22,359 nt of DNA, from positions 1 through 22,359 of the IMG/VR virus record IMGVR_UViG_3300028569_000182. One strand, given 5' to 3'. Position numbers and translations under genes: made by a program. Position 1 is the stretch's first letter, and each line of letters begins with the position of its first letter. The stretch is from a virus. Shown one piece after another: positions 2,318 to 22,359 of the stretch. The notes beneath the pieces are model-generated. The model saw only the letters and a program-made list of their open reading frames with translations. It was not told the origin of the DNA and did no database searches.

Positions 2318-3529
2318 AGATCCATAGGCATATAATTTAACTTGCTTCTTTTGTTAATTATATATATATTAAAATATATGTAAACAATAGGAGTAACATG
2401 GAAAGCGAAAAAACAATTATGGCATATTTAGCAGGAGTTATGGATGGTGATGGTAGCTTTGGGTTAACTAGATTAACTAAGCTAAGTCGCAACCTGCAAT
2501 ATAGACCAGAATTACAATGCTGTAAGGTTAGAAAAGAGTTTTTAGAATTATTGCAAACTACTTTTGGTGGATATTTAATGACTGGTAAAATACACATTTG
2601 CAAAGACGGAACAGAGGGGCAAGCCTTGACTACATGGAAGCTTCAATCGTCTGGCAATGTAAAGCCTGCACTTGAAAAACTAATACCGTATTTAGTTATA
2701 AAAAAAGACAGAGCTGTGCTTTTATTGGACTTTATAAATAATAATCCATTTGAAAGAGGCAAGATTCTAAGCCCTGAGATTTTAAGGCAACGAGAAAAAG
2801 CTTATCTTGAAATAGTTCAGCTTAATGACTGGGTAAGTCAAAGTTCCAAAATAACTACAGTGCTAGCAAAAGATAACACTGATAATGAGTTGTTTTGGGC
2901 TTATGTTGCTGGGTTAATGGATACGGATGGTTCTTTTTCTGTAAAAAGACAAATGCAGAACAAAGGTACAGATGTTAAAAACCCAAGATATTTACCAGTT
3001 ATTAGTTTAGGTATGGTTGATGCTCGAGGGATAAATTATATTCGTGAAAACTGTAATATAGGTAAATTCTATGTACCTACACACAGAGACACAAAAAAAG
3101 GAATATTTTATCTGTTTGGTATTTACACAAAAAAAGAATGCATAGCTTTTTTACAAAGGATAATACCTTATCTCAGGTCAAAAAAACTTAACGCCCAAGT
3201 ATTGTTAAACTTTTGCGTAAATGCTAAAAATACAGGTTACTGTAGAGCAGGTATACCAAAAGAAGAGTTAGCTTTCCGTGATAAATGTTATCAAATATTA
3301 TGCGAATTAAATAAATATGGGGTCTCTAAATCTCCTCTGATAGTCTTGGAACCCTTACCAGATAATGCTGGAGGCAACAAGGAGCAAGCAGGCTTTATGC
3401 CGTGCAGCTTGAACGCAGTAAGCGAGGAGACGTCGAAAGACGATGCGGTACTCTGATCTTACAGGAAACTGTAAGAGGTAGGCTGAGAAGATCTACCCGC
3501 CACGCAAGTGGTCATAAAGTAACAGAATG
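2318..3529 (+). ncRNA. Group I intron 1 in the capsid gene, encoding a LAGLIDADG endonuclease
   Basis: The intron is 1212 nt. The 3' core shows the group I pseudoknot in correct order: P3 (CTCCTC 3332-3337 with GAGGAG 3424-3429), P4 (CTTG 3345-3348 with CAAG 3385-3388), P5-like hairpin CCAG/CTGG, P6 (3388-3407), P8 (CGTC-GAAA-GACG 3431-3442) and P7 (CAGTA 3416-3420 with TACTcTG 3449-3455). Three hairpins follow: 3458-3475 with a GAAA loop, 3476-3496, and 3502-3513 with a GCAA loop. The intron ends on G3529, as the family requires. At the 5' end, CCTA/TAGG (2315-2328) could form P1, but the usual U-G wobble at the splice site is not seen, so the 5' boundary rests on the protein reading frame. 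Group II was considered, but no proper domain V is present. Confidence 0.88.
2398..3456 (+). CDS. LAGLIDADG homing endonuclease encoded in intron 1
   Basis: The protein has 352 aa and two LAGLIDADG motifs: LAGVMDGDG at about residues 10-18 and VAGLMDTDG at about residues 169-177. Two motifs in one chain mean a monomeric enzyme with a pseudo-symmetric DNA-binding saddle. The acidic residue ending each motif (the last D of MDGDG and MDTDG) supplies metal-binding catalysis. Each half has the expected follow-up of beta strands and a YLR/YLV-type helix ending. ATG 2398 is preceded by an AGGAG SD, so it is translated on its own rather than fused to exon 1. The C-terminal roughly 40 codons (from about 3332) also encode the P3-P7 core of the intron, so this tail is under RNA constraint. 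The enzyme should cut the intronless capsid allele near the exon 1/exon 2 junction (inference). Confidence 0.95.
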   Translation: MESEKTIMAYLAGVMDGDGSFGLTRLTKLSRNLQYRPELQCCKVRKEFLELLQTTFGGYLMTGKIHICKDGTEGQALTTWKLQSSGNVKPALEKLIPYLVIKKDRAVLLLDFINNNPFERGKILSPEILRQREKAYLEIVQLNDWVSQSSKITTVLAKDNTDNELFWAYVAGLMDTDGSFSVKRQMQNKGTDVKNPRYLPVISLGMVDARGINYIRENCNIGKFYVPTHRDTKKGIFYLFGIYTKKECIAFLQRIIPYLRSKKLNAQVLLNFCVNAKNTGYCRAGIPKEELAFRDKCYQILCELNKYGVSKSPLIVLEPLPDNAGGNKEQAGFMPCSLNAVSEETSKDDAVL

Positions 3530-3571: not shown

Positions 3572-3775
3572 TAAATTTGGCGCAGTATAAATTTTCGGTA
3601 ATTGACTTGGAAGCCTAAGGCAAAAGCTATGGCGACAAGGGGCAAGTTTAAATACAGCCTGAGAGACTAAACCCGAAAACCCGTAAGGGATGTGATAGTC
3701 CGCACAGAACAACGAAAGGTTCTGAGGTAAGCAGAAATGACTTATCCGCACTTTTTAAAGTGTAGTAACAATAAG
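3572..3775 (+). ncRNA. Group I intron 2 in the capsid gene, 204 nt, no ORF
   Basis: All core helices can be drawn by eye. P1 pairs exon ACTGCGT (3565-3571) with GCGCAGT (3580-3586), a perfect 7-bp helix with the conserved U-G at the splice site. P10 pairs TTTG (3576-3579) with CAGA at the start of exon 3 (3776-3779). P3 pairs TTTTCGG (3592-3598) with CCGAAAA (3673-3679). P4 is CTTG (3606-3609) with CAAG (3643-3646). P7 is GACTA (3665-3669) with TAGTC (3696-3700). P8 is CCC-GTAA-GGG (3680-3689). P9 is CAGAAC/GTTCTG (3705-3724). A final stem pairs CTTAT (3741-3745) with ATAAG (3771-3775). The intron ends on G3775. This is a minimal ribozyme whose splice sites are both defined by pairing. Confidence 0.93.
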
Positions 3776-20689: not shown

Positions 20690-20717
20690 TTGACACCTTT
20701 TGATTTTATAGTATACT
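20690..20717 (+). promoter_or_regulatory. Strong sigma70 promoter for the rightward early genes
   Basis: TTGACA (20690-20695), a perfect -35 box, is followed 16 nt later by TATACT (20712-20717). The -35 overlaps the start codon of the divergent 122-aa gene. The predicted start (about 20724) leaves a short leader before the ATG at 20741. The -10 lies inside a palindrome. Confidence 0.75.
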
Positions 20718-20740: not shown

Positions 20741-21037
20741 ATGAAAGCACATATGAACAGCAAAGGCCCATATTCTGGAACAGTAACAGGATATAATTTT
20801 GAACCAATTTTCTTAGCGATTATACGCGGTAAAATCATATCTAGTCAAGATGCATGTGCTGAGATAGGTATTTCAAGAACGCATTGGTTACGCATACGCT
20901 CAGGCAATAAGTACGGCGCGGGCAGTTTAGCGGTTGGAAAATTACAACGATGGGTTGCGGATAACAAACACTATCTCAAAAACAGTAAAGATTTACTTTT
21001 GTTAAAGGCGTTCCATGAAGAATTTGGAGAACAATAA
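20741..21037 (+). CDS. Putative helix-turn-helix DNA-binding protein (early regulator)
   Basis: The protein has 98 aa. Residues about 33-57, SSQDACAEIGISRTHWLRIR, have the helix-turn-helix pattern (Q-A-C-x-E-I-G-I-S-x-T-x-W-x-R-I) seen in small XRE/Cro-like proteins. The rest is a helical body that may allow dimerisation. It is the first gene behind the strongest promoter in the window, with a palindrome at that promoter, so it may regulate its own transcription and the divergent 122-aa gene. The SD is weak, and ATG at 20753 is an alternative start. The next small gene overlaps its 3' end by 23 nt. The HTH call is by eye and needs a profile search. Confidence 0.6.
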   Translation: MKAHMNSKGPYSGTVTGYNFEPIFLAIIRGKIISSQDACAEIGISRTHWLRIRSGNKYGAGSLAVGKLQRWVADNKHYLKNSKDLLLLKAFHEEFGEQ

Positions 21038-21193: not shown

Positions 21194-21236
21194 ATGACAA
21201 GCGTAGTTATTTCAACTATACTTGTCATAAATTTTT
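21194..21236 (+). terminator. Strong rho-independent terminator
   Basis: ATGACAAG (21194-21201) pairs with CTTGTCAT (21221-21228), and an inner GTAGTT/AACTAT stem extends it to about 14 bp. It is followed by AAATTTTT and preceded by a long A run, so it may work in both directions. It ends the HTH/Cys-rich unit just before the repeats. Confidence 0.75.
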
Positions 21237-21281: not shown

Positions 21282-21439
21282 GTATAAAAGTCTACGAAAG
21301 AACAGTTAAAACATGTATAAAAGTCTTTACACAATTAAAAGGCCCGACGAAAGGACAGTTAAAACATGTATAAAAATTTTTACAAAATTAATCCCCACGA
21401 AAGGACAGTTGTAAAACATGTATAAAAGTCTAACAGAAT
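21282..21439 (+). repeat. Tandem repeats duplicating the start region of the replication-type gene
   Basis: Three copies of a unit built on ACGAAAGGACAGTT, AAAACATGTATAAAA and AATTA begin at 21294, 21347 and 21397 (periods 53 and 50). A partial copy with GTATAAAAGTCT is at 21282-21293. The last copy contains the SD and start codon of the gene at 21418. The first two copies also carry GAAAGGA, then ATG TAT AAA, and would direct short peptides of 33 and 19 codons. The array may be iterons for replication, or repeated promoter or leader elements. Positions 21237-21281 hold a small ACCG/CGGT stem and a G-run but no gene. Confidence 0.75.
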
Positions 21440-22359
21440 TAGTCTCTATTTGTATAAATAAAGATTACCACAAAGAGACACACAAATCAACTGTTTGTAA
21501 ACCTTTGGGTAATAAGCAAACCCAGTTATATAATTCTGCTAAAAAACGTTATGCGTTTAACCCTGCCGAGCAAGTCGGAACAGTGGATAATTACACCTTT
21601 AACAAGTTATCCCCAGCCTATCAAAAAGTATGGGGTGCGTTATGTACATTAGCTAAAACGGTTGAGACTACACAGCAAGGCAGCCCACGCGCTTATGAGT
21701 TTGGGGACAAGATTTGGTTATCTGCTAAAGCTGAAACAATAGCCGAGCGGGCAAATATTACGGTAAGAACATATTTTAGGGCTGTAAATCATTTTATTGA
21801 GCTGGGTTGGTTGGAGCGTTATAAGTGTAACAACACAAACGGGCGTAAAAATAATTTTGCTCCTGTTTTTTATAGAATCACTTTATCGCCGTCTGCTATC
21901 AAAAAAACCATGATGCTACTTACCTCGTTTTTGCAGCTTCTATGCTTTACAAAACCATGTCATACAGACACTAAACTCTATAGTAATATATATATAAATA
22001 AGACTCTAAATATTGTAAGTAATGTGACAAAAGCGCACATGTTTGGTTATGCTAAGTCATTTAACAACCCTTTTATAAAAAAAGGAGGGGGAGGGGAGAT
22101 GAGCGAAGCGACAATCAACCATGTTTTAGAGGAGTTGGCCTTAACAATCACACCAGCCACTACAGAAAACCAATTGCGTAGTCAGGTCAATACCATATTG
22201 TGCAAACACCTTAAACGTGATGAGGTTGATTATAGAGTCGTTGAACAAGCCACCAAGCGAGCTATTGCATATATCAGCAAAAAACGCGGTGAGCAGAGAT
22301 TACGCAAAACGCAAGAATATATGGCAAGCCGTCCTTTTGGGGTTATGGGTAATACGCCA
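21418..22359 (+). CDS. Winged-helix replication-initiation-type protein, 3'-partial
   Basis: The frame is open from ATG 21418 to the end of the window (314 codons, no stop). Residues about 62-145 form a winged helix-turn-helix: LSPAYQKVWGALCTLAK, a YEFGDKIWLSAKAETIAERA strand-helix, then NITVRTYFRAVNHFIELGWL as the recognition helix and a basic wing ending FAPVFYRITL. This arrangement is common in phage replication initiators and replisome organisers. Residues about 150-220 are a linker with a KKGGGGE low-complexity stretch. From 228 a helical domain follows that may contact helicase or loader. The tandem repeats upstream would be a natural binding site and origin (inference). The AAAGGA SD lies 13 nt before the ATG, within the last repeat. 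Confidence 0.72.
   Translation, partial: MYKSLTELVSICINKDYHKETHKSTVCKPLGNKQTQLYNSAKKRYAFNPAEQVGTVDNYTFNKLSPAYQKVWGALCTLAKTVETTQQGSPRAYEFGDKIWLSAKAETIAERANITVRTYFRAVNHFIELGWLERYKCNNTNGRKNNFAPVFYRITLSPSAIKKTMMLLTSFLQLLCFTKPCHTDTKLYSNIYINKTLNIVSNVTKAHMFGYAKSFNNPFIKKGGGGEMSEATINHVLEELALTITPATTENQLRSQVNTILCKHLKRDEVDYRVVEQATKRAIAYISKKRGEQRLRKTQEYMASRPFGVMGNTP

Follow-up and report, generated by a model that had tools for sequence, protein, structure and literature searches.

A tandemly duplicated translation-initiation region upstream of a phage replication gene as a possible coupled leader

Results

The window, by which we mean the whole stretch of 22,359 bases that was analysed, is an IMG/VR virus record from an uncultured phage, and it carries head, tail and fibre genes and, on the minus strand, a gene for an Erf-like annealing protein. 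An HNH endonuclease (phrog_374, E=9e-59) is encoded amid the structural genes at 1151-1810 on the minus strand. A LAGLIDADG-type endonuclease gene at 2398-3456 stands upstream of a gene piece at 3737 that gives a match to the C-terminal portion of a family of major head proteins, and an intron carrying a homing endonuclease probably interrupts the capsid gene. After the Erf-like gene there is a rightward operon comprising a 98-amino-acid gene at 20741, a 57-amino-acid gene at 21015 and a gene at 21418. A sequence scan places a candidate promoter for this operon, TTGACA-16-TATACT, at 20690-20717 on the plus strand, and its counterpart in the related contig L004 reads TTGACA-17-TATACT.

The third gene of the operon (21418-22359, plus strand) runs off the end of the window and is 370-371 codons long in its relatives. 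Its product best matches phrog_186, a family of DnaD-like helicase loaders (E=1.2e-6), followed by phrog_391 (E=3e-4), and also O-like families, in agreement with the initial annotation, which had called it a replication gene. That annotation had also described the product as a winged-helix protein, a description for which we found only sub-threshold Pfam helix-turn-helix matches and a low-confidence AlphaFold2 model (mean pLDDT 48, too weak to search with). The first 25 or so codons of the gene vary freely among relatives.

Between the 57-amino-acid gene and the replication gene lies a gap of about 230 nt. The part of it that precedes the leader contains a hairpin at 21194-21228 (plus strand; fold z -7.1), which overlaps a promoter-like ATGACA-17-TATACT. 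Counterparts in the relatives have changed arms and a retained structure (z -5.4 in L004 and -4.0 in L002), and the hairpin is therefore probably functional, perhaps as a terminator, a processing site or an operator. A terminator scan was empty, and an Rfam search matched no family.

Downstream of the hairpin lies a single strong tandem array at 21294-21431 (period 53, 2.7 copies, 85% matches), which is real and unusual: its TRF score of 189 compares with a top score of 61 in 40 first-order shuffles of the window. The unit consists of a ribosome site, an ATG and the first codons of a reading frame, and it occurs three times on the plus strand, with ATGs at 21313, 21366 and 21418 that are 53 and 52 nt apart and have AAAACATGTATAAAA in common. 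In a scan of all ATG neighbourhoods in the window, the pair at 21313 and 21366 was the most alike, with 27 of 28 positions matching, against at most 21 in shuffles. Copy 1 (21294-21346, 53 nt) has a weak Shine-Dalgarno (SD) sequence, AAAGAA, whereas copies 2 (21347-21396) and 3 (21397-21439) have AAAGGA, so that, contrary to what had been claimed, the SD is not the same in all copies. The SD lies 10 nt before the ATG in copy 2 and 12 nt before the true ATG in copy 3. The array had initially been drawn as starting at 21282, and indeed a fourth, ATG-less remnant, GTATAAAAGTCTA, lies at 21282-21294 on the plus strand; these 13 nt match the gene start (BLAST self-match to 21414-21438, E=0.002). 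The repeats are best explained as tandem copies of the region where translation of the replication gene starts, comprising SD, ATG and first codons.

Each of the two upstream ATGs opens a short reading frame on the plus strand, and the codon counts given for them in the initial annotation, 33 and 19, are exact. Leader ORF1 (MYKSLYTIKRPDERTVKTCIKIFTKLIPTKGQL, 21313-21414, 33 codons and TAA) is in frame with the replication gene and ends 3 nt before it, with only TAA AAC between its last sense codon and the ATG (TAA AAC ATG) and a start-to-start distance of 105 nt. Leader ORF2 (MYKNFYKINPHERTVVKHV, 21366-21425, 19 codons and TAA) has its stop at +6 to +8 of the gene, an overlap of 8 nt. Copy 3 differs from copy 2 by two extra bases (TTGTAAAAC versus TTAAAAC), which both create the ORF1 stop and move the SD of the gene out to 12 nt before the ATG. 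With an aligned SD spacing of 9, as against 7 in copy 2 and 2-7 in 17 other window genes, the replication gene has the longest spacing of the 18 genes checked. Its start is also predicted to be modestly less accessible than those of the leader ORFs, with a mean unpaired probability over the start footprint of 0.36 versus 0.58 and 0.63 (in L002, 0.40 versus 0.60 for the leader start). Folding of the leader RNA is no stronger than that of shuffled sequences (z -1.3, -0.5 and -0.3), which argues against a strong structure hiding the gene start.

Six related contigs were found, five of which encode a protein with 75-93% identity along most of its length, the sixth covering the end of the replication protein. 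The leader region is present in four of them (L002, L003, L004 and L006) and looks quite different from that of the window, with the SD AAAAAAGGAGTTTTTAAAT before ATGATTAAAAG and many indels among the relatives. In L004 and L006, the SD, ATG and first codons recur 100 nt upstream of the gene (90% over 29 nt in L004) and open a 35-codon ORF. In L002 and L003, a duplicate of SD and ATG lies 33 nt upstream (96% over 28 nt), together with an additional partial copy of codons 9-15 and a 30-codon ORF. All four ORFs end with TAA at +6 to +8 of the gene, the same 8-nt overlap as ORF2, and for the leader ATGs concerned the distance to the gene is 52, 85 or 100 nt, in every case 1 modulo 3. Across the window and these four relatives, the short leader ORFs span 19-35 codons and are at least partly degenerate copies of the gene start. 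Start copies within one genome are more like each other than like those of the other leader type, which suggests that the duplications arose separately in each lineage or have been kept alike.

How often shuffled leaders stay open as far as the gene start is suggestive rather than conclusive (0.06 for window ORF1, 0.23 for window ORF2, 0.046 for L002 and 0.055 for L004), since the leaders of the relatives share common ancestry and the stop register is inherent in ATGTATAAA and ATGATTAAA. An ORF reaching the ATG in that frame is bound to end there, which leaves only the frame and openness of the leader ORFs as informative, and the homology of the L002, L004 and L006 leaders leaves few independent cases.

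An exact search for the window repeat among viral contigs gave zero matches; when the gene, its C-terminal part or its neighbours served as queries against viral contigs, just the same few contigs or distant Erf relatives came back. No relatives were found in GTDB genomes or among GenBank phages. A search with the gene-start pattern hit 44 places, with the gene start itself only in L053, L057, L068 and L074, all of them contigs that were already in the set.

Discussion

We propose, with close to even confidence, that the array is a self-duplicated, coupled translation leader, made by tandem duplication, that sets the output of the replication protein; what the leader does is most likely to tune the amount of that protein. 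Ribosomes loading at one or more of the upstream start copies would make a short leader peptide, terminate translation at a TAA located at the true ATG or immediately ahead of it, and start again at that ATG. Output would then depend on translational coupling and not only on direct initiation from an over-spaced SD. We infer all three elements of this scheme, namely translation of the leader ORFs, ribosome re-initiation and raised or tuned expression. The sequence of the leader peptide varies from lineage to lineage, so the peptide as such is probably unimportant.

Coupling is expected for stop-start distances of about -8 to +10 nt, and an 8-nt overlap (-8) is the third commonest in prokaryotic gene pairs (PMC10666635). 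Both ORF2 (-8) and ORF1 (+3) fall inside this range, and the window and four relatives each have a short ORF with a start signal and a stop at or overlapping the gene start, as a coupled leader should. The over-long SD spacing of the gene and the ORF1 stop, both due to two extra bases, would be expected if direct initiation were weak and ribosomes arrived from the leader. Against coupling, the SD of copy 1 is weak, and the gene has an SD of its own from which it could be translated directly. Among the three roles initially suggested for the repeats, the leader fits best, in the broad sense that it would control how the replication gene is expressed. The number of repeats may matter as well, but the comparison included only one leader of the window type.

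The main rival to a coupled leader is neutral tandem duplication, in which slippage or recombination copied the start region and the extra ATGs have no function, persisting because the N-terminus and the leader are under little constraint. The freely varying first 25 or so codons of the gene agree with this, and start copies from one genome are closer to one another than to the equivalent copies in relatives, as recent lineage-specific duplication would leave them. Start-region duplicates without an obvious role also occur elsewhere (L003 8257/8438; L027 8880/9115). Neutrality accounts less readily for leaders that differ and yet all keep an open frame ending on the gene start, or for the fact that each of the four relatives with the leader has a partial copy of the gene start, and we regard it as somewhat unlikely.

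The upstream copies might instead lower synthesis, by capturing ribosomes and having them read across the true start out of frame. ORF2 and its counterparts do run across the SD and ATG of the gene in a different frame, and the SD spacing is better in copy 2 than in the gene. The decoy starts proposed in the initial annotation are thus possible, yet both leader ORFs end at the true start, which makes coupling at least as likely as sequestration. Stops placed directly at a start favour re-initiation over loss, and overlaps of this size normally couple positively (PMC10666635), so an inhibitory decoy appears unlikely.

The repeats had also been suggested to be iterons, that is, binding sites of the encoded protein and a site of replication initiation. 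They adjoin a replication gene with an O-like or DnaD-like product and they are AT-rich. We rejected this reading on account of a double dissociation between leader and DNA-binding domain. Over residues 29-160, which include the helix-turn-helix, the window and L002 match at 128 of 132 positions, yet only 93 bases of their leaders could be aligned over 190 columns, and the window-type unit is absent from L002 despite the near-identical binding domain. Conversely, L004 and L006 have 170 of 171 leader bases in common and match at just 75 of 131 residues. Because these two pairs dissociate in opposite directions, leader and binding domain appear to have been inherited independently, and in the window, L002, L004 and L006 the repeat sequence did not track the domain as iterons should. 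In addition, the SD and ATG are in register within the repeats, and GC skew along the window, a check proposed in the initial annotation, has no clear switch or origin mark at them. The repeats are probably not a DNA replication origin, and we give an iteron role very little credence. In phage lambda, iterons lie inside the O gene and fit the N-terminal domain of O. The window resembles lambda and its relatives (PMC7466680) in having repeats near a gene of a phage replication initiator family, but its repeats precede the gene and do not track the binding domain.

Least probable of all is control at the transcriptional or RNA level, with the repeats binding a regulator or forming an attenuator together with the hairpin at 21194-21228, which is strong, is kept with changed arms and contains promoter-like sequence, but lies apart from the repeats and gave neither an Rfam match nor a hit in the terminator scan.

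The closest known parallels to a coupled leader of this kind come from other replication genes. In Salmonella Genomic Island 1 (SGI1), the last codons of the leader peptide S004 overlap repA, translation of S004 is essential for RepA, and a stem-loop hides the repA start and enforces coupling (PMC7826253). In plasmid R1, according to Blomberg (1992) as cited in PMC7826253, an antisense RNA controls translation of the leader peptide in tap-repA. The window shares with both a short ORF overlapping the start of a replication gene, an arrangement in which coupling controls initiator synthesis in those systems. Unlike either, it has a leader ORF that copies the start of the downstream gene itself, and that gene is from a phage; the lack of unusual folding in the leader RNA, with no strong leader structure in the window, further sets it apart from SGI1 repA. 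Its 8-nt overlap and +3 spacing are within the coupling range of termination-reinitiation gene pairs (PMC6728339, PMC10666635), although the upstream cistron in this case is a degenerate duplicate of 19-35 codons rather than an established gene. We searched a literature library for duplicated translation-start regions before phage genes and found no direct precedent in it.

If the leader does couple, a leader ORF can have a simple origin, in a duplicated start region, a difference in frame and one stop, and the control of replication proteins by leader peptides, familiar from plasmids, would extend to a phage gene. A broader version, which we consider rather unlikely, is that self-duplication of the initiation region is a repeatedly used route to a coupled leader in this phage group, with the number of repeats serving as a rapidly mutable dial on replication-protein synthesis and the copies kept alike by concerted change.

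A better candidate than the leader for a cis element such as an origin may lie inside the replication gene, at about 21955-22100, where conservation is strong at the codon level even in L006, whose preceding part is scrambled. The first part of this segment is AT-rich, and the segment includes an AT-rich palindromic run, TAGTAATATATATATAAATA; a recombination boundary would explain the pattern equally well.

At 22072-22110, TTTTATAAAAAAAGGAGGGGGAGGGGAGATGAGCGAAGC is perfectly kept in the window and all six relatives. Here a very strong ribosome site lies inside the gene, with an in-frame ATG (Met228) after it, which suggests a second, shorter product consisting of the C-terminal domain. In the low-confidence AlphaFold2 model, a new helical domain begins in the region of Met228.

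Other duplicated start sites were seen in the contigs L003 and L027. L003:8231-8440 contains another duplicated ribosome site and ATG (93% over 29 nt, 181 nt apart), and this pair flanks a small ORF; L027 has a similar duplicated pair. This suggests entry or movement of small genes between ribosome-site copies.
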